A DNA stretch of 47,843 nt, from the NCBI RefSeq assembly GCF_900114545.1, contig NZ_FOTI01000024.1, positions 1-47,843 of the forward strand, written 5' to 3'. Positions 2,670-26,927 of this stretch are shown here, piece by piece. A program made the translations under genes and the position numbers. This stretch comes from Halanaerobium salsuginis (GTDB taxonomy: Bacteria > Bacillota > Halanaerobiia > Halanaerobiales > Halanaerobiaceae). The notes beneath the pieces are model-generated. The model was not told the origin of the DNA. It saw only the letters and a program-made list of their open reading frames with translations, and did not search any database. Within the stretch, counting starts at the first letter, position 1. Each line of letters begins with the position of its first letter.

Positions 2670-3632
2670 CTACTGATGAGCAGCTCCAATTAATGAACTT
2701 AGTTTATTAAGCTGATGTTTTTTTAAATAATCTTTAATTTCAGCCAAAATTCGTAAAGCTGCAGCTGGCTCTCTCAGGTTAATACTGCCCAGACCAACTG
2801 CTGTAGCACCTGCCAGCAAAAATTCTATTACATCACTTCCTGAGCAGATTCCTCCCAAACCAATAATTGGAATTGTCAATTTTTGATAACTCTGATAAAC
2901 CATTTTAACAGCTATTGGCTTAATTGCTGGACCAGATAGCCCCCCATAAGTATTGGCCAGTAATGGTTTTTGCTTTTCAATGTCGATTTTCATTGCACTT
3001 AATGTATTAATTAAGGCTACAGCATCTGCCCCAGCTTCTTCTGCTGCCAGAGCAGTTGTAGTTATATCAGTAATATTTGGTGTCAGTTTAACAATTATAT
3101 AACCTGGATAAACCTGCTTAATCTTTCTGGTGATTTGAAAAACATTTTCAGGATCGGTGCCAAAAATCATTCCCCCACCTTTAATGTTAGGACAGGATAA
3201 GTTAACTTCTAGACCACTAATCTCTTTTTGTTCAGCTAATTTAATTGCTATATTGACAAAATCATCGGCCTGATAACCAGAAATATTAGCTAAAATGGGT
3301 AGATTATACTGAGCTGTTTCAGGAAGTTTTTTAGCAATAAATTGATCTACACCAGGGTTTTCAAGTCCAATTGAATTGATTATACCAGCAGCACTTTCTG
3401 CAATACGCGGTGTTTTGTTGCCTGGCTGAGCCTGCAGAGTAATACCCTTAGTAGTAAATGCTCCTAACTGATTAAGGTCAAAAAATTTAGCTAACTCATG
3501 ACCATTACCACAGGTTCCAGAAGCAGTTATTAAAGGATTTTTCAATTTTAAATGAGAGCCATTCTTTGCTTTTAAAACAGTAGCTAGATCAATTTTTTCT
3601 GTTAAATCAGTTGCTGATTGTTGCTTATTCAT
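2670..3632 (-). CDS. pyrD: Dihydroorotate dehydrogenase B, catalytic subunit (class 1B)
   Basis: A 320-residue FMN enzyme oxidising dihydroorotate to orotate. NPLITASGTCGNG (32-44), the catalytic-cysteine motif NLSCPNIKGGG (C147), GLSGPAIKP, and the FMN phosphate-binding GLGGICSGSD are all present. C147 as general base is the class 1 hallmark, and the adjacent pyrK makes this the NAD-dependent 1B form, a heterotetramer with PyrK. The N terminus carries about 15 extra residues before the usual start of the fold. Its start codon overlaps the end of pyrK by 8 bases, indicating translational coupling. Confidence 0.95.
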   Translation of the reverse strand: MNKQQSATDLTEKIDLATVLKAKNGSHLKLKNPLITASGTCGNGHELAKFFDLNQLGAFTTKGITLQAQPGNKTPRIAESAAGIINSIGLENPGVDQFIAKKLPETAQYNLPILANISGYQADDFVNIAIKLAEQKEISGLEVNLSCPNIKGGGMIFGTDPENVFQITRKIKQVYPGYIIVKLTPNITDITTTALAAEEAGADAVALINTLSAMKIDIEKQKPLLANTYGGLSGPAIKPIAVKMVYQSYQKLTIPIIGLGGICSGSDVIEFLLAGATAVGLGSINLREPAAALRILAEIKDYLKKHQLNKLSSLIGAAHQ

Positions 3633-4404
3633 CTAACTCTACCTCCCCTAGTTTAAAAACTGGCCCTTCAATACAGGCACGTTTTCTAGTTAGAGGTGAT
3701 TCTACACTCTGACAGCTGCAGGAAAGACAGATACCAATTCCGCAACCCATCCTTTTTTCAACCGATAATTCCCCATCTATATTCCTTGCTAAAGCTTCTT
3801 TTTCTACAGCAAGCAGCATTTTTTCAGGACCACATACATAAATGAAGTCCGCTTTATTAGCAGGTAAATTTTTTAACCAGAGCTGTAAAGCAGTTCCCTT
3901 AAAATCAAGTTTTTCTGCCATTGCAGTTAGCTTAATTGAACATTTTAATTCACTAAACTTCTGCTGAAAAAAGTTTAGTTCTGTTTTAGTCTCAGCACCT
4001 AAATAGATACTTAACTGCTGTTGATCAGCAAGAACTCTAGCTAGATAATAAAGAGGGGCAATTCCAATTCCCCCACCAATTAAGTGCAGACTTTTTTTGT
4101 TTTCTGGTAGAGTAAAACCTTTGCCCAGCGGACCAAGCAAATCAAGGCTATCTCCTACTTTAAAGCTGCTTAAAATCTCTGTTCCCCGCCCAACTACTCG
4201 ATAAACAAAAGTTAACTGCTGACTAACTGGATTAAAATCAAAAACACTAAAGGGACGTCTTAAAAAAGGATCTTTGCTTTTTAGTTTATTAACTTTTAGA
4301 TTAAAGAATTGACCTGGCTGCGGCTGTTCTATTAATTTATCAGCTTTTATAATAATTTCATAAATTTTAGGGCCAACAAGTCGATTAGCTATTATTTTAA
4401 ACAT
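3625..4404 (-). CDS. pyrK: Dihydroorotate dehydrogenase B, electron-transfer subunit
   Basis: A 259-residue FAD/[2Fe-2S] subunit that passes electrons from PyrD's FMN to NAD. It has an N-terminal FAD-binding beta barrel (RRPFSVFDF region), a NAD-binding fold (GGGIGIAPLYYLA), and a C-terminal cluster with the cysteine pattern of this family: GCGIGICLSCSC then ACIEGPVF. I chose ATG 4404 (MFKIIANRL) because GAGGAGG lies 5 bases upstream; a longer reading to 4431 has no ribosome site. It lies between pyrF and pyrD, overlapping pyrD. Confidence 0.94.
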   Translation of the reverse strand: MFKIIANRLVGPKIYEIIIKADKLIEQPQPGQFFNLKVNKLKSKDPFLRRPFSVFDFNPVSQQLTFVYRVVGRGTEILSSFKVGDSLDLLGPLGKGFTLPENKKSLHLIGGGIGIAPLYYLARVLADQQQLSIYLGAETKTELNFFQQKFSELKCSIKLTAMAEKLDFKGTALQLWLKNLPANKADFIYVCGPEKMLLAVEKEALARNIDGELSVEKRMGCGIGICLSCSCQSVESPLTRKRACIEGPVFKLGEVELDE

Positions 4405-4495
4405 CTTTTCCTCCTCATAACCAGCCTTCAAAATTGTTAGAGCTAGTTTTGAAATTTAACTTTTTTCGCTCAACTATTAGCAAAGTTGACTAGCT

Positions 4496-5404
4496 TTATT
4501 TTAGACTAAGAACTGCATTAATTTCAGTCCGCATTTCCCGGGCAGCTGCTCGAGCTGCTTCAGCATAATTTTCTGCTCCATAATTTTTATAAGCAGCTGC
4601 TCTATAAGCAAAATTTATACCTCGTGAAGAATTTATAATTGCTCCCTGTCCTTGACTATCAAAACCAGCTTTAATATCTAAGGCTCCGCCTCCCTGAGCA
4701 CCATAACCAGGAATCAAAAAGAATGTTTGCGGCAGTTGTTTTCTGATTGCAGCTAACTCAGCTGGATAAGTAGCGCCTACCACAGCTGCTAAATTAGAAT
4801 AACCACATTCCCCTAGATAAGGCTCACCTAATTCTGCCAGAAAATCACCAACAGCTTGATAAAACAGCTTACCGTTTGCTAATTTTAAATCTTGTAAATC
4901 AACTGCAGAAGGATTGGAAGTTCTTAATAAAGCAAAAGCGCCTTTATTTTTATTTTTTAAAAAAGGCAAGATACCATCTCTACCTAAATAAGGATTTATA
5001 GTAATCGCATCAGCAGCAGTTTCTTTAGCAAAATAAGCTTCTGCATAGGCTGCTGCTGTTGATCCAATATCATTTCGCTTTGCATCTAATAAGACAAGCA
5101 GGCCCTCTGTTTGTGCTTTTTTTATTAATTTTTTGAGTACTTTAAAGCCAGCTGAGCCAAGCTTCTCATAAAAAGCAATCTGTGGTTTAACTACCGCTGT
5201 AAAATCGGCTACTGCAGCTAAAATATCCTGATTAAACTTCAGAACTGCTGCTGCAATTTCTACTTGATTTGCTGCTTGATCCTGCAAAAGTTCAGGATCG
5301 AGCACTGTCTCAGGTAATAATTCAAGGTGCGGATCTAAGCCAACACAAATTCTGGAATTCTTTGCTATCATTTTTTCCTGTAGTTGATCAATAAATAATT
5401 TCAT
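4496..5404 (-). CDS. pyrF: Orotidine 5'-phosphate decarboxylase (type 2)
   Basis: A 302-residue TIM-barrel enzyme that decarboxylates OMP to UMP, the last step. The active-site motif DAKRNDIGSTAAAYA identifies it, and its length (about 300 rather than 230) marks the longer type 2 (PyrF2/mycobacterial-type) subfamily. RICVGLDPH near the N terminus and the phosphate-binding segment IPGYGAQGGGA fit. ATG 5404 is chosen (GGGAGGG upstream); a longer frame to 5425 lacks a ribosome site. It overlaps the end of pyrC by 17 bases. Confidence 0.94.
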   Translation of the reverse strand: MKLFIDQLQEKMIAKNSRICVGLDPHLELLPETVLDPELLQDQAANQVEIAAAVLKFNQDILAAVADFTAVVKPQIAFYEKLGSAGFKVLKKLIKKAQTEGLLVLLDAKRNDIGSTAAAYAEAYFAKETAADAITINPYLGRDGILPFLKNKNKGAFALLRTSNPSAVDLQDLKLANGKLFYQAVGDFLAELGEPYLGECGYSNLAAVVGATYPAELAAIRKQLPQTFFLIPGYGAQGGGALDIKAGFDSQGQGAIINSSRGINFAYRAAAYKNYGAENYAEAARAAAREMRTEINAVLSLK

Positions 5405-8992: not shown

Positions 8993-9044
8993 ATTATTCC
9001 TCCCTAAAATTTTAATAATCTCTTAAATATAATTTAAAACAAAA

Positions 9045-9075
9045 AACTCTCTGCCAGTTAAACTGACAGAGAGTT
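9045..9075 (-). terminator. Attenuator terminator upstream of uraA
   Basis: Read on the minus strand, AACTCTCTGTCAGT pairs with ACTGGCAGAGAGTT around a 3-base loop with one mismatch, followed by TTTTTGTTTT. It lies 79 bases downstream of the PyrR loop at 9154-9167 and 53 bases before uraA, the arrangement of a PyrR-controlled attenuator. Confidence 0.88.
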
Positions 9076-9153
9076 AAAAAATATATTAGGTAATCTAATT
9101 TAAATTAGTTAACTAATTTAAATCTAAACCTGACTACTAATAAACTCCTTATC

Positions 9154-9167
9154 AGCCTCACTGGGCT
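9154..9167 (-). promoter_or_regulatory. PyrR-binding loop upstream of uraA
   Basis: On the minus strand the RNA reads AGCCCAGUGAGGCU, matching the PyrR anti-antiterminator consensus (ARUCCNGNGAGGYU) except for one base. It sits in the pyrR-uraA spacer ahead of the terminator at 9045-9075. UMP-bound PyrR should favour termination here. Confidence 0.88.
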
Positions 9168-9238
9168 AATTTAAAGGAAAATCATTTATTCAATTTTTAG
9201 ATTTTCAAACTCTTAATTAAAGTAAGCAATAGCTTAAT

Positions 9239-9799
<561 letters not shown>

Positions 9800-9845
9800 T
9801 TACCTCCTTTGCGGGAGCATACATAATTTAGCTTAACAAAAAAAT

Positions 9846-9872
9846 AACCTTCTTAAGACAAGTAAGAAGGTT
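9846..9872 (-). terminator. Attenuator terminator upstream of pyrR
   Basis: Read on the minus strand, a perfect 10-bp stem (AACCTTCTTA / TAAGAAGGTT, 7-base loop) is followed by ATTTTTTTG. It sits 53 bases before pyrR and downstream of a PyrR loop. Confidence 0.9.
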
Positions 9873-9897
9873 GCTAAAATCTATATTTTCCCTTACT

Positions 9898-9911
9898 AGC
9901 CTCTCTGGACT
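9898..9911 (-). promoter_or_regulatory. PyrR-binding loop upstream of pyrR
   Basis: On the minus strand the RNA reads AGUCCAGAGAGGCU, an exact fit to the PyrR binding consensus. It precedes the attenuator terminator at 9846-9872. Confidence 0.93.
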
Positions 9912-9947
9912 AATTTAAAAGAATAATTAATTATTTTATTTTAAATA

Positions 9948-16072: not shown

Positions 16073-16570
16073 TTAATTAATTTTTTTAATTAACTCACTA
16101 AATATTTTAACCAACTCACTTGAAAATTGAAGTCCACTATAATCTTTTAACTCAGCTAAAGCTTCAGCAGGTGTCAATAAACTATCATAAATCCTTTCAG
16201 TAGTCATTATATCAAAGGAACTTGTTATAGCAACTACCTGAGCCAGAATAGGAATATCATCGCCTGCTAATCCTTCTGGATAGCCACTTCCATTCCACCA
16301 CTCATGATGATATTTTACCAATTCAACTATTTCTTTTTCATCCTGATCTAACTTACCTGGCTTGTTAAGAATAGCATGAGGCAGCATTAATTTACCAATA
16401 TCATGTAATAAAGCCCCTGTTTTTAACTTTTCTCTTTGTTGATCAGACAGCAAAAGTTTTTGAGCCAATTTATCTGCTAAAATAGCAGTCCGTTGAACAT
16501 GATTTTGATTATGGAGATCATGTGCTTCAAGTACTAACAAAATTAACTTTAACTCTTTATTGATCATCAT
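16073..16570 (-). CDS. Small stand-alone HD-GYP-like protein with incomplete metal site
   Basis: A 165-residue protein that is nearly all HD-GYP domain, the fold of c-di-GMP phosphodiesterases. HD is at 56-57 (LLHDIGKLMLP), HHE at 88-90 and GYP at 96-98 (NGSGYPEGL). Two features of active HD-GYP enzymes are missing. The helix with the HPxxG histidine between HD and HHE is gone (only about 30 residues separate them, against about 60 in the HD-GYP protein encoded at 18581). The ADxFDA aspartate ligand is serine (S117 in AITSSFD). It is 23 bases after the FapA-family gene, so it lies under the same c-di-GMP riboswitch. It may be a c-di-GMP or protein-binding module rather than an enzyme. Confidence 0.8.
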   Translation of the reverse strand: MMINKELKLILLVLEAHDLHNQNHVQRTAILADKLAQKLLLSDQQREKLKTGALLHDIGKLMLPHAILNKPGKLDQDEKEIVELVKYHHEWWNGSGYPEGLAGDDIPILAQVVAITSSFDIMTTERIYDSLLTPAEALAELKDYSGLQFSSELVKIFSELIKKIN

Positions 16571-16593
16571 AAATCTCCCCCTTTACTTTATAA

Positions 16594-18387
16594 CTAATTT
16601 TTACTGCTTTCTGATTGATAATTAACAAGTTTTTTTAATTCTTTAAAATCAGGACTACCAGCTTGCTGCTCTAACTCTCCTTTAGAGTTAACTGCTAAGT
16701 AAAGATTATTCTGGGGCTGATCAATAAAAATTACATCATTGTCACTCTCAATTTTAACATTACTTTCTATATATTGAACATAAATTCCCTTTCCAATTCG
16801 AAAGTCAGTTCTACTTAATGAACTATTAACTACTTTAAGGTAAATAAAATCTTCAGCTGAATATTTACCCCCTTTGACAAAACCCTGCTGACCAATATTA
16901 ATTATATTTTTGCCAGCAGAAATTTCTGAATTATAACAACCTTTATTTCTAATAATTACATTACTAGCTGCATTAATAGTTGAATTTTGAATATAGTCTG
17001 CTGATACATTAGCTTCTTTTAAATTATGCTGTGCATCAATGATAACTTCTAGCTGATCCTTTAATTTAATGAAAATATCTAAATCATTAATTCGCAATAT
17101 TTTTTTATAACCTTTAAAAAGCTGCTTCATTTCAGAGATAGTAGAAATTGCTTCCCAATCATAATCATAAGTAGATGTTTTATCAGCTAACTTATTAATT
17201 AAAATAGGGATCTGCTTAAACTTATCTATTAATAATAGTTTTAAGATCCTGCCTAACTGCAGATTTCTCTGCAAAAAACCCATTCTCTCCTGAGCAGCTC
17301 CTAAAATTTCATTTACAGCTGCAATCATATCTTCAAGTTCTTTAAAAAGTTTTTTCAGATCAGCAACTAATTTTCGCGATAAATATAGGCCAGCCTTAAT
17401 CTGACTGTTAACTATATTTTGTCCAACTATAATGTCACCATTTGCATTAGCATTACAACCTGCAATACTTTTAGCAATATGAAGATTATTGCCAACTCTA
17501 ACATCAAAATAATCAAAGATATTACCTTGAACAATTAAATCTCCCTGATAGCGAATATTTCCAGTAGTTTTGTCAACATCACCTTCAATTATATATTGAG
17601 GCACAATTGTAACAATAAACTGGTCTTTTTTCTTTTCTAATTTAGGACGGCCTACTTCAGTAGCAACTGCCTGACTACCATCGTTAATTAATTTGCTGCC
17701 TTTACCAGCCACTAATTGATAATCTTTAACAGGTGGCGCAGTAATCTTTTCTCTTAAAACATTTATGCCATCTTTTCCTGGTACAGCTGGTTGCTTTTCT
17801 GCAACTATTTCTCCTTCAGCAAAAGAAGTTATACAATTAAAATCACCTGATTTACATTGCTCATCTTCTTTTTCGATTAAATTGATCCGGGCATCTTGAC
17901 CAGAAACTGGCTTATCTCCTTCAGCAATTAAAAATTCTCCTGTCTGGTTATTATTAATTATTTTAGTTAAAAGTTCTTTTTTAACTCCATAACGAACTCT
18001 ATTTTTTAGCAATAAAATTGAAATATCAGACTCAGTTAATTCTACTGGGTCAGTTATTATTTTTTCTGTTTCTAATTTCACTACAGAAGCAGGGGGATGA
18101 TCTTTTATCTTTACTTTATAGCCTGATTTTATATTTATATTTAGATAAGCCTGCAGAGCTTCCTGAGTAATTTTTAGATTTAAATCTTTTTGAGACTTTT
18201 CTTCAATTTTTTCTATTTCAATTTTACTATCAGCAAAAACTACTGTTTCTTCATCTATTTTTTCACCATCTAAGTAAACATTGACATTCTGATCCACTTT
18301 TAAAAGCGGATAACTACCTGAACCAGTTGGATTAACAACCTTAACCTGCTCAGCTTTTATTTCAATTGTACCATCTTTATTTCCCAT
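16594..18387 (-). CDS. FapA family (DUF342) polymer-forming protein
   Basis: A 597-residue cytoplasmic protein of the FapA (flagellar assembly protein A, formerly DUF342) family. The N-terminal part is a lead-in region. QPAVPGKDG (about 205-215), the conserved KGSKLINDG...GRP segment, and the beta-helical core (IEGDVDKTTGNIRYQGDLIVQGNI) follow. There is a coiled-coil stretch (LKKLFKELEDMIAAVNEIL) and then a second beta-solenoid part rich in NIINIG/GKGIYV repeats. Biochemical role is not settled in the family. ATG 18387 is chosen (AGGTGAG upstream); a longer frame starts at 18411. A GEMM-I riboswitch ends about 30 bases upstream. Confidence 0.82.
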   Translation of the reverse strand: MGNKDGTIEIKAEQVKVVNPTGSGSYPLLKVDQNVNVYLDGEKIDEETVVFADSKIEIEKIEEKSQKDLNLKITQEALQAYLNINIKSGYKVKIKDHPPASVVKLETEKIITDPVELTESDISILLLKNRVRYGVKKELLTKIINNNQTGEFLIAEGDKPVSGQDARINLIEKEDEQCKSGDFNCITSFAEGEIVAEKQPAVPGKDGINVLREKITAPPVKDYQLVAGKGSKLINDGSQAVATEVGRPKLEKKKDQFIVTIVPQYIIEGDVDKTTGNIRYQGDLIVQGNIFDYFDVRVGNNLHIAKSIAGCNANANGDIIVGQNIVNSQIKAGLYLSRKLVADLKKLFKELEDMIAAVNEILGAAQERMGFLQRNLQLGRILKLLLIDKFKQIPILINKLADKTSTYDYDWEAISTISEMKQLFKGYKKILRINDLDIFIKLKDQLEVIIDAQHNLKEANVSADYIQNSTINAASNVIIRNKGCYNSEISAGKNIINIGQQGFVKGGKYSAEDFIYLKVVNSSLSRTDFRIGKGIYVQYIESNVKIESDNDVIFIDQPQNNLYLAVNSKGELEQQAGSPDFKELKKLVNYQSESSKN

Positions 18388-18390
18388 TAT

Positions 18391-18442
18391 CTCACCTACT
18401 TTATTTAGCATAATGAACTCATCAAAACTTTAGTTTAGGTGG
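18391..18442 (-). promoter_or_regulatory. Possible riboswitch expression platform: RBS and anti-RBS of the fapA gene
   Basis: On the minus strand the 3' edge of the aptamer reads CCACCTAA (18442-18435) and the ribosome site reads TAGGTGAG (18398-18391). CACCTA and TAGGTG can pair over 6 bases. There is no U-tract hairpin in this short gap, so c-di-GMP control is more likely translational. The pairing is seen in the sequence; the mechanism is inferred. Confidence 0.45.
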
Positions 18443-18512
18443 CAGCCGGGCTATCATAGCATTTAGCCTTAGACCCCTTGCTTTGCGTAATTATCTTTTA
18501 ATAATTTTGCTT
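18436..18512 (-). ncRNA. Cyclic di-GMP-I (GEMM-I) riboswitch upstream of the fapA gene
   Basis: On the minus strand the aptamer has a hairpin (AATTAT / ATAATT) preceded by GCAAA, then the GEMM signature ACGCAAAGC, AAGGGGTCTAAGG, and ATGATAGCCCGGCTGCC. These match the conserved core of the c-di-GMP-I riboswitch in order and spacing. It lies between the GGDEF-HD-GYP gene (stop at 18581) and the FapA-family gene. Confidence 0.93.
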
Positions 18513-18580
18513 TTATGAAATATCTGGCCACAATAATTAAATAGTTTATTTATTATTATTTAACTGGTTCATAATCTACC

Positions 18581-20977
18581 TCATTCCTCATTAGATTTGA
18601 AAAAGTAAGCTTCTTTTATAACCTCTAAAAAAATTGCTACTAATTCAGGATCATATCTTTTACCAGCATCTGCTTTATACTCAGCAGCAATTTCTGCATA
18701 ACTTTTTTCTTCATCTGTAAAATTAAGTGTCCAATTCATATTTTCAGCTAACTTAATAACCATAGCCATAACTGGAATTTCTCCTCCTTTTAAACCACGG
18801 GGATAACCACTTCCATCCCAATTTTCGTGATGTGATAATATTATATCTGCTAGTTCTACAGTTTCATCAAATAAGTTTAAAATCCTATAACCAATAACTG
18901 GATGTTCTTCTACAGATTTTTTCTCCTCTTCACTTAAAAAAGTTAAGCCTTTTTCCTCGTTTAGATTACTTATTTTTTCCAATAAATCACTCTTTAAAAC
19001 TATTTTACCAATATCATGCATAAAAGCTGCTACTTTAAGCTGTTTTAACTTACCCTGATTTAAACCTAATTTTCTACCCAGCCTAACAGCCAGCTGACTA
19101 ACAAATAAAGAGTGTTCTCGTTCTCTAGAACTACGATTATGTAGAGTATCCATAATAGTTTCTATCATCTGATGATTAACTTTTTTTCTGTTTAAAGTTT
19201 TATTTTTATACATTTCATGTTCAGCATTATCCATAATCCGTTCCAGGTTCTGAAAAATATGATCTTTAACATCACAGCCCATAGCAATACTTGCTTTGAC
19301 AGCTCTAATTTTTTCTTGATTAAACTGTTTTTTTATTCTATCAATAATTGAATTAGCAACTTTAAGCTCAGTTTTAGTCAGCAAAACTGCAAATTCATCT
19401 CCTCCAACTCGGGCTACAATGTCTTCTGAACGATCATTTCCACTCCGACAAAAATTCTTCAAAATCTGCGCTGCTTTGATTAAAAGTTCATCTCCTGCAT
19501 CATGTCCAAAAATATCATTTGTTAGCTTTAAGCCATTTAAATCTGCAAAGATAATAGCAATTGGCAAGTTTTCCTGCTTATCTTTCTCTTTTAACTGCTT
19601 TTCAAAATATTTTCTATTATAAAGTCCAGTTAAAGAATCATGATAACTAATATAACTAATTTCTTCTATATTATCTTTTAAGGCATCATTACTCTGTTCT
19701 AATTCAACAGTTCTTTCTGCTACTTTTTCTTCTAGATTATTAATTAAGTTATTAATTGTAGCTGCCATATTATTAAAAGAAATTGCCAAGCGGGCAATTT
19801 CATCACTCCCAGTAATTTCAGCTCTTTGGGAAAGCTTCCCAGCCGAAAAATCTTCAGTTACTTCAATTAACTGATTAATAGGATTTAAAAATCTATTGGT
19901 TAAATATAGATAAATTGTGATTGAAGTTAAAAGGGAAATTAAAATTAAAAGGCCAGCTAACTTCATTCTATGATAAATAGCATTAGAAAAAATACTTACC
20001 GGAATTGAAGAAATTATTAACCAGTCAAGACCATTTCTATTGAAAGGAATCACACTTAAATAAAATTTTTGATTACGAAAATAATAGTCAAATCCTGGCC
20101 TGTTCTGCGTTAAGTACTCAGAATAAGCTTTAGTGAGAATTGGTTTATTTATTTCCTTAATATTTATTCTGGTAAAATCATTATCATTTAAATTCTTAAA
20201 ATTAACTAAATTAAATGAATTACCAACCAGTTTACCCGAATTTTTTTCTACAATAATTGTTTCTGTTTGTTCTTCATCTGATATTTTTTTCAACATTTTG
20301 TTAATTTCTCGTAAAACTATATGTGCTCCCAAGACCCCCTGCAGACCACCTTGTTTATTATAAATAGCAGTCGAAGTGGAAACAGTTAAGTCATCCATCA
20401 CAAAATGTTTGTAAATTTCAGAAAATCCAATTTGATCATTATCTATTGCTCTTTTATACCAGGCCCTAGTCCGGGGATCAAATTGACCAGCATCAACAGT
20501 TTTTTTAGCAGCTCTAAAATTATTATCTACTGAATAATACCAGGAATGACCAGCAGTAGCCTGATTATTTCGCATTATTTCTATCTTATTTGATAAATTC
20601 CTTCTTGCCCCATAATAATTGCCATTACTGCTGCCAAAACTAAAACTATAAATTATATCTTGACTATGATTAGCAAGCACACTGGTAAAAAAACTTTCTC
20701 GCTGATTTTGATCATTTAAATCAATCACACCTTGACTAATTAGTTCTTTATTTACTTCTAATAAATGAATAGGAATATCGATAAATTGATTTACCTGGCT
20801 TAATATTTCTTTATCAACATGGCTTAAAGTTTGCTTAATGCTGCGATCAGCAAGTCCCAGCCAACCTTTAAAAATAATATAACCAATAAGCAAAGAAGTA
20901 GTAAGGATAATAATTATAAAAGAAATAATAATTAAAGTTTGAATAGAAATATTTTTACTATTTTTTAAATTCTCCAT
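18581..20977 (-). CDS. Membrane Cache-HAMP-GGDEF-HD-GYP cyclic di-GMP protein
   Basis: A 798-residue sensor with transmembrane segments at about 14-36 and 340-360. A periplasmic dCache-type domain lies between them (DPRTRAWYKRA at 167-177), then a HAMP linker (363-415), GGDEF and HD-GYP. The cyclase site GGDEF is intact (525-529) with an inhibitory RxxD site five residues before it (RSED 516-519). The HD-GYP part has HD (654-655), the HPxxG histidine (H692), HHE (716-718) and GYP (724-726). The usual aspartate of the ADxFDA motif is glutamate (E745, LAENMNW). Both synthesis and breakdown of c-di-GMP are possible. It is directly upstream of the riboswitch-controlled fapA operon. Confidence 0.88.
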   Translation of the reverse strand: MENLKNSKNISIQTLIIISFIIIILTTSLLIGYIIFKGWLGLADRSIKQTLSHVDKEILSQVNQFIDIPIHLLEVNKELISQGVIDLNDQNQRESFFTSVLANHSQDIIYSFSFGSSNGNYYGARRNLSNKIEIMRNNQATAGHSWYYSVDNNFRAAKKTVDAGQFDPRTRAWYKRAIDNDQIGFSEIYKHFVMDDLTVSTSTAIYNKQGGLQGVLGAHIVLREINKMLKKISDEEQTETIIVEKNSGKLVGNSFNLVNFKNLNDNDFTRINIKEINKPILTKAYSEYLTQNRPGFDYYFRNQKFYLSVIPFNRNGLDWLIISSIPVSIFSNAIYHRMKLAGLLILISLLTSITIYLYLTNRFLNPINQLIEVTEDFSAGKLSQRAEITGSDEIARLAISFNNMAATINNLINNLEEKVAERTVELEQSNDALKDNIEEISYISYHDSLTGLYNRKYFEKQLKEKDKQENLPIAIIFADLNGLKLTNDIFGHDAGDELLIKAAQILKNFCRSGNDRSEDIVARVGGDEFAVLLTKTELKVANSIIDRIKKQFNQEKIRAVKASIAMGCDVKDHIFQNLERIMDNAEHEMYKNKTLNRKKVNHQMIETIMDTLHNRSSREREHSLFVSQLAVRLGRKLGLNQGKLKQLKVAAFMHDIGKIVLKSDLLEKISNLNEEKGLTFLSEEEKKSVEEHPVIGYRILNLFDETVELADIILSHHENWDGSGYPRGLKGGEIPVMAMVIKLAENMNWTLNFTDEEKSYAEIAAEYKADAGKRYDPELVAIFLEVIKEAYFFKSNEE

Positions 20978-26824: not shown

Positions 26825-26896
26825 AAGTGCAACCTGGCAATCTTAACTAAGAAGACCCATGGCTTTGCGTCGCTGCTTCACAACAGCTTTGCCCAT
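26825..26896 (-). ncRNA. Cyclic di-GMP-I (GEMM-I) riboswitch upstream of the GGDEF/EAL gene
   Basis: On the minus strand the aptamer opens with GGGCAAAGCTGTT, a GUGA (GNRA-type) tetraloop and AGCAGC, then the signature GACGCAAAGCC, ATGGGTCTTCTTAG and GATTGCCAGGTTGCAC. The tetraloop and the receptor-side helix are in the places known for GEMM-I. A terminator follows 17 bases downstream, so control is at transcription elongation. Confidence 0.94.
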
Positions 26897-26927
26897 ATAT
26901 GTAATAAAATATCATTTTTATATATAT

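Follow-up and report, generated by a model that had tools for sequence, protein, structure and literature searches.

Proteins of the FapA family are widespread, with long-form relatives encoded in 194 of the 299 sampled genomes of the phylum, and lack a settled biochemical role. Vibrio FapA is known for its recruitment to the flagellated pole and for binding EIIAGlc (work cited in PMC6877527). For class-I cyclic di-GMP (c-di-GMP) riboswitches, the functional switches tested in C. difficile were of the OFF type (PMC6200980). In the HD-GYP family, the metal ligands of PmGH are E185, H189, H221, D222, H250, H276, H277, and D305, and of the two substitutions relevant here, H250A abolishes activity and D305A lowers it, whereas another member of the family, Bd1817, still binds two irons, closed by a lid (PMC4159591). 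Our literature search found no paper that pairs c-di-GMP riboswitches with DUF342 or a flagellar assembly protein, or that names fapA as a target of such a riboswitch.

Here we analyze a 47,843-nucleotide stretch of the Halanaerobium salsuginis genome (contig NZ_FOTI01000024.1; hereafter, the window) in which a riboswitch-fapA operon, made of parts of known kinds, provides a modest but real lead to FapA function, given that the link between the c-di-GMP sensor and FapA recurs in distant relatives. The specific twist of this locus is a conserved HD-GYP protein with an apparently altered active site. The four elements named in the original prediction are all present and lie in one direction, on the minus strand (cmscan, Pfam): a gene encoding a dCache-HAMP-GGDEF-HD-GYP protein (18581-20977), a c-di-GMP-I (GEMM-I) aptamer (18438-18521), a long fapA-like gene of 597 aa (16594-18387), and, in second place in the operon, a gene for a small degenerate HD-GYP protein of 165 aa (16073-16570). 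The stop codon of the cyclase gene is 60 nt from the aptamer, and another 51 nt separate the aptamer from the likely fapA start, the expression platform occupying positions 18388-18437, and the HD gene starts 23 nt downstream of fapA. The cyclase gene had been counted as a member of a c-di-GMP island, a role that did not survive comparison with relatives: it is missing from this place in the three nearest ones that possess this fapA (G018, G016, and G014), and their gene order rules it out as part of the unit. The conserved unit consists of the aptamer, fapA, and the HD gene, with the cyclase gene as an upstream neighbor. The product of the latter (20977-18581) combines dCache/PDC, HAMP, GGDEF (with an intact motif), and HD_5 domains (Pfam), and, according to our residue tally, the last metal-ligand Asp of its HD-GYP domain is replaced by Glu. 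There are no flagellar genes near the locus. Elsewhere in the window, two PyrR binding-site leaders (9039-9181 and 9838-9925, minus strand) flank pyrimidine genes, an ordinary arrangement.

The window fapA product matches both FapA_N (PF20250; 93.2 bits, 1.6e-26, gathering score 27) and the FapA beta-solenoid (PF03961; 61.3 bits, 1.5e-16, gathering score 31). Although the longest open reading frame (18411-16594) comprises 605 aa, the ATG at 18387 is the likely start, being preceded by a Shine-Dalgarno sequence and aligned with the starts in relatives. The genome encodes four FapA proteins, one canonical and three long ones including that of the window; the canonical gene is found in a flagellar operon elsewhere, after a sigma factor gene, so that the window protein belongs to the FapA domain family but, by context, does not appear to be the flagellar FapA. 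Each of the other two long fapA genes is located directly behind a gene for a PAS protein. No aptamer was found at these two PAS-linked genes (L013 3161-6541 and L014 4985-8368) or at their likewise PAS-linked relatives (L058-L061); at the loci of the C29 type, a conserved, divergently oriented gene additionally encodes a secreted protein of about 165 aa. The AlphaFold2 (AF2) model of the window FapA (mean pLDDT 69) has beta-rich parts and a helical insertion at residues 338-454. A sequence search of solved structures yielded no match to this protein, and the fold search with the model yielded no match at E <= 0.001, the only hits being helical ones to the insertion.

The aptamer (18521-18438) matches the full length of the RF01051 model (positions 1-87) with 65.7 bits and E 9.4e-11, far above the gathering score of 35, and was placed identically in a second search of the genome. 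It has A instead of the first G in the canonical GGC on the 5' side, and retains the G of the GC before helix P2, which we take to be the equivalent of G20 in the Vc2 aptamer. Upstream of the ATG at 18387 lies the Shine-Dalgarno sequence AGGTGAG; in the predicted leader folds, its UAGGUG is paired with a CACCUA that lies at the aptamer's 3' edge and starts inside the aptamer match, the mean pairing probability being about 0.9 over the core five pairs in the window. By the Vc2 aptamer, these CACCUA bases presumably form the start of the 3' strand of helix P1. The same anti-Shine-Dalgarno pairing is predicted for the G016 leader and, in a weaker form, for that of G018. A terminator scan of the window leader found none, and a transcription terminator is thereby ruled out as the expression platform; on reading, the leaders of G024 and L084 contain terminator-like hairpins. 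The folds suggest that in the window control is exerted at the level of translation, via the Shine-Dalgarno pairing.

When the aptamer was enforced in folding, the Shine-Dalgarno sequence stayed closed and the minimum energy was unchanged, a folding outcome that would fit an OFF switch. Because folding does not separate the ligand-bound from the free state, the direction of control rests on analogy, which favors rising c-di-GMP turning the operon OFF, as in the C. difficile switches. The same compatibility of the aptamer with a closed Shine-Dalgarno, together with the substituted first G, might be taken as the sign of a relic aptamer, or of one serving the upstream transcript only, which would leave fapA free of c-di-GMP regulation. 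We consider this highly improbable: the aptamer scores high, its link to fapA is conserved across several families, and in two relatives (G018 and G016) it has no same-strand gene directly upstream.

Orthologs of the window fapA are 56-57% identical in G018 and G016, 52% in G014, and 39% in G032. In G018 and G016, which belong to the same genus, a DegV gene and an unrelated gene on the opposite strand are followed by the aptamer, fapA, and the HD gene. G032 represents a different family of the order; there, contig C120 ends with the aptamer and the initial fapA codons, and contig C252 starts with the remainder of fapA and the HD gene; we infer that these contigs belong together. The fapA-HD pair behind a GEMM-I aptamer that figured in the original prediction thus recurs in three other genomes, with the HD gene at most 23 nt behind fapA in all four loci across two families, but G014, a close relative, has fapA by itself, so that neither the aptamer nor the HD gene is essential for fapA. 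In a third family (G024 and G023), the aptamer precedes a long fapA and the small HD gene is absent, whereas in G021, the aptamer is followed by a PAS-GGDEF-EAL gene, a PAS gene, and fapA. Read by eye, the fapA behind an aptamer in G008 (L054, about 3100-4600, minus strand) opens with a Jag_N-like segment and is interrupted by in-frame stops, which makes it a possible pseudogene.

With linkage defined as a same-strand aptamer no more than 700 nt upstream of the gene, 6 of the order's 15 long-fapA loci qualify (the window, G018, G016, G032, G024, and G023), against 0.009 expected. Across the phylum, the same holds for 5 of 60 further long-fapA loci (0.03 expected, 0.2 by a generous bound), namely, L084, L106, L108, L123, and L092, the last with a small ORF in between; L084 and L092 come from one genome. 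Coordinate comparison adds one more linkage, in G147 C92, where an additional FapA match has an aptamer about 156 nt upstream. In the FastTree phylogeny, the aptamer-bearing loci of the order group with the PAS-linked copies in a single clade (support 0.993), and the remaining ones are dispersed over the tree. This implies that the link is of long standing within the order and that, in other places too, it either arose or was retained. The linkage is far beyond chance, and yet, on the breadth of the association, most long fapA genes have other neighbors (PAS, STAS/SpoIIE): the aptamer-fapA link is real but held by a minority of these genes. None of the best 30 c-di-GMP-I aptamers by score in the phylum sample has fapA within 1.5 kb, so that fapA is a minor target class. 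A scan of genome contigs with a single peptide pattern gave matches only in Halanaerobium/Halanaerobiales, and the wider sampling comes from the separate genome searches.

This distribution bears on the possibility that fapA and the HD gene are co-transcribed without functional coupling, with the riboswitch controlling fapA and the HD gene being a passenger kept in one lineage. Outside the clade, most loci with an aptamer before fapA have no HD gene downstream (L084, L106, L108, L123, G024, and G023), and the neighbors of long fapA genes vary, as a passenger would predict. Nevertheless, we regard such a passenger as quite unlikely, since the pair is kept, with tight spacing, between families f1 and f6 at 39% FapA identity, one and the same residue change sets the linked HD proteins apart, and HD-GYP genes also adjoin unrelated long fapA genes (L077, L084, and L121).

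The product of the HD gene matches HD_5 with 99 bits (2.9e-28) and keeps HDIGK and HHEWWNGSGYP, that is, the HD and HHE...GYP motifs, which are retained in all four linked HD proteins. None of the four, however, has the complete set of seven ligands (H189, H221, D222, H250, H276, H277, and D305 of PmGH). The D305 equivalent is Ser in 4 of the 4 linked proteins and in 0 of the 27 other HD-GYPs; overall, the 31 distinct HD-GYP sequences in the DNA examined have 25 Asp, 2 Glu, and 4 Ser at this position. Compared with its three relatives, the window copy additionally misses about 20 residues, including the H250 equivalent, in an in-frame gap that may be an assembly fault. The full-length relatives retain the equivalents of H189, H221, D222, H250, H276, H277, and K225, their ligand changes being confined to D305 and E185, the latter of which varies among active enzymes too. 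Given that H250A abolishes the activity of PmGH and D305A only lowers it, the window protein is predicted to be inactive as a phosphodiesterase and its full-length relatives to be impaired or altered, although they may retain slow hydrolysis. For the window HD copy, AF2 gave a low-confidence model (pLDDT 64), on which no result rests.

The retained ligands leave room for ordinary feedback, in which the small HD protein is an active phosphodiesterase, now or until recently, the riboswitch tunes c-di-GMP turnover with fapA co-controlled, and the window copy, with its extra deletion, is decaying. PmGH D305A still hydrolyses c-di-GMP slowly (PMC4159591), and the second c-di-GMP-I aptamer of the window (26825-26903, minus strand; cmscan, 59.7 bits), a separate unit, precedes a PAS-GGDEF-EAL gene (26724-24718) in a feedback-like arrangement. 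We nevertheless judge feedback to be somewhat unlikely: two families have the identical Asp-to-Ser replacement as a fixed trait, suggesting that an altered function has been maintained rather than that the gene is decaying, and the frame of the window HD gene is open, with 58-60% identity to the full-length relatives. Aptamers at an upstream distance similar to that of the second one are also present in G018 C7 and G016 C4. In total, the genome carries four class-I aptamers, located before flgB, pilB-pilT-pilC, the GGDEF-EAL gene, and the window fapA.

On balance, we lean slightly toward the view that fapA and the degenerate HD-GYP gene form a two-gene operon whose expression responds to c-di-GMP via the class-I riboswitch of the leader, with the following mechanism. 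In the Halanaerobium members, translation would be controlled through base-pairing between the Shine-Dalgarno and the aptamer's 3' edge, and rising c-di-GMP would most likely switch the operon OFF. The HD protein of this species would not hydrolyze c-di-GMP but would bind either a nucleotide or an interaction partner, for which the FapA-like protein is the probable candidate. That protein would be a cytoplasmic beta-solenoid scaffold, the amount and perhaps the state of which would follow c-di-GMP within the motile/sessile switch.

Signaling genes other than HD-GYP also recur beside long fapA genes. In 16 of the 60 loci of other Bacillota, a STAS gene of the anti-sigma antagonist type is directly adjacent (L074, L075, L078, L080, L082, L083, L085, L086, L088, L091, L094, L102, L114, L117, L119, and L120), and among the upstream neighbors in the 60 loci, 9 contain a SpoIIE-type phosphatase domain and 5 an RsbW-type ATPase domain. 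This gene context suggests that long FapA is an output or platform of several signaling systems and, possibly, a member of partner-switch modules. A broader generalization, which we consider unlikely as it stands, is that long FapAs constitute a class of signaling-controlled cytoplasmic scaffolds, distinct from flagellar FapA and each gated by a dedicated partner: the altered HD-GYP receptor here, PAS for the sister copies, and STAS/SpoIIE in other Bacillota. If true, c-di-GMP would control both the amount of the scaffold, through RNA, and its state, through the HD receptor. More generally, the conserved riboswitch and the recurrent signaling partners tie long FapAs to c-di-GMP and partner-switch signaling, and thus provide a defined gene pair open to direct testing; the altered HD-GYP would join the few pseudo-enzyme candidates of its family.

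Several known systems resemble this operon in part. With flagellar FapA (Vibrio vulnificus, Borrelia), the window protein shares the FapA_N and FapA beta-solenoid domains, but it has about 60 aa more and carries an additional N-terminal part as well as the helical insertion, and its gene lies outside a flagellar operon. Partner-switching modules (SpoIIE/RsbU phosphatase, STAS antagonist, and RsbW-type kinase) contain long fapA elsewhere in the phylum, whereas the window operon has none of their genes, the partner being an HD-GYP-like protein. The Cdi-1-3 riboswitch of C. difficile, before flgB, belongs to the same aptamer family and is located directly upstream of a motility/surface-related operon (PMC6200980), and the window genome likewise has a class-I aptamer before flgB; in the window, however, the target is a long fapA with a degenerate HD gene, and predicted Shine-Dalgarno pairing takes the place of a terminator. 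Finally, the window HD protein is akin to PmGH and Bd1817 in its HD...HHE...GYP motifs and, like the unconventional, inactive Bd1817, is predicted to lack the expected phosphodiesterase activity; the linked HD proteins differ from both in being small stand-alone domains without the last metal-ligand Asp, and the window copy lacks a ligand His as well.
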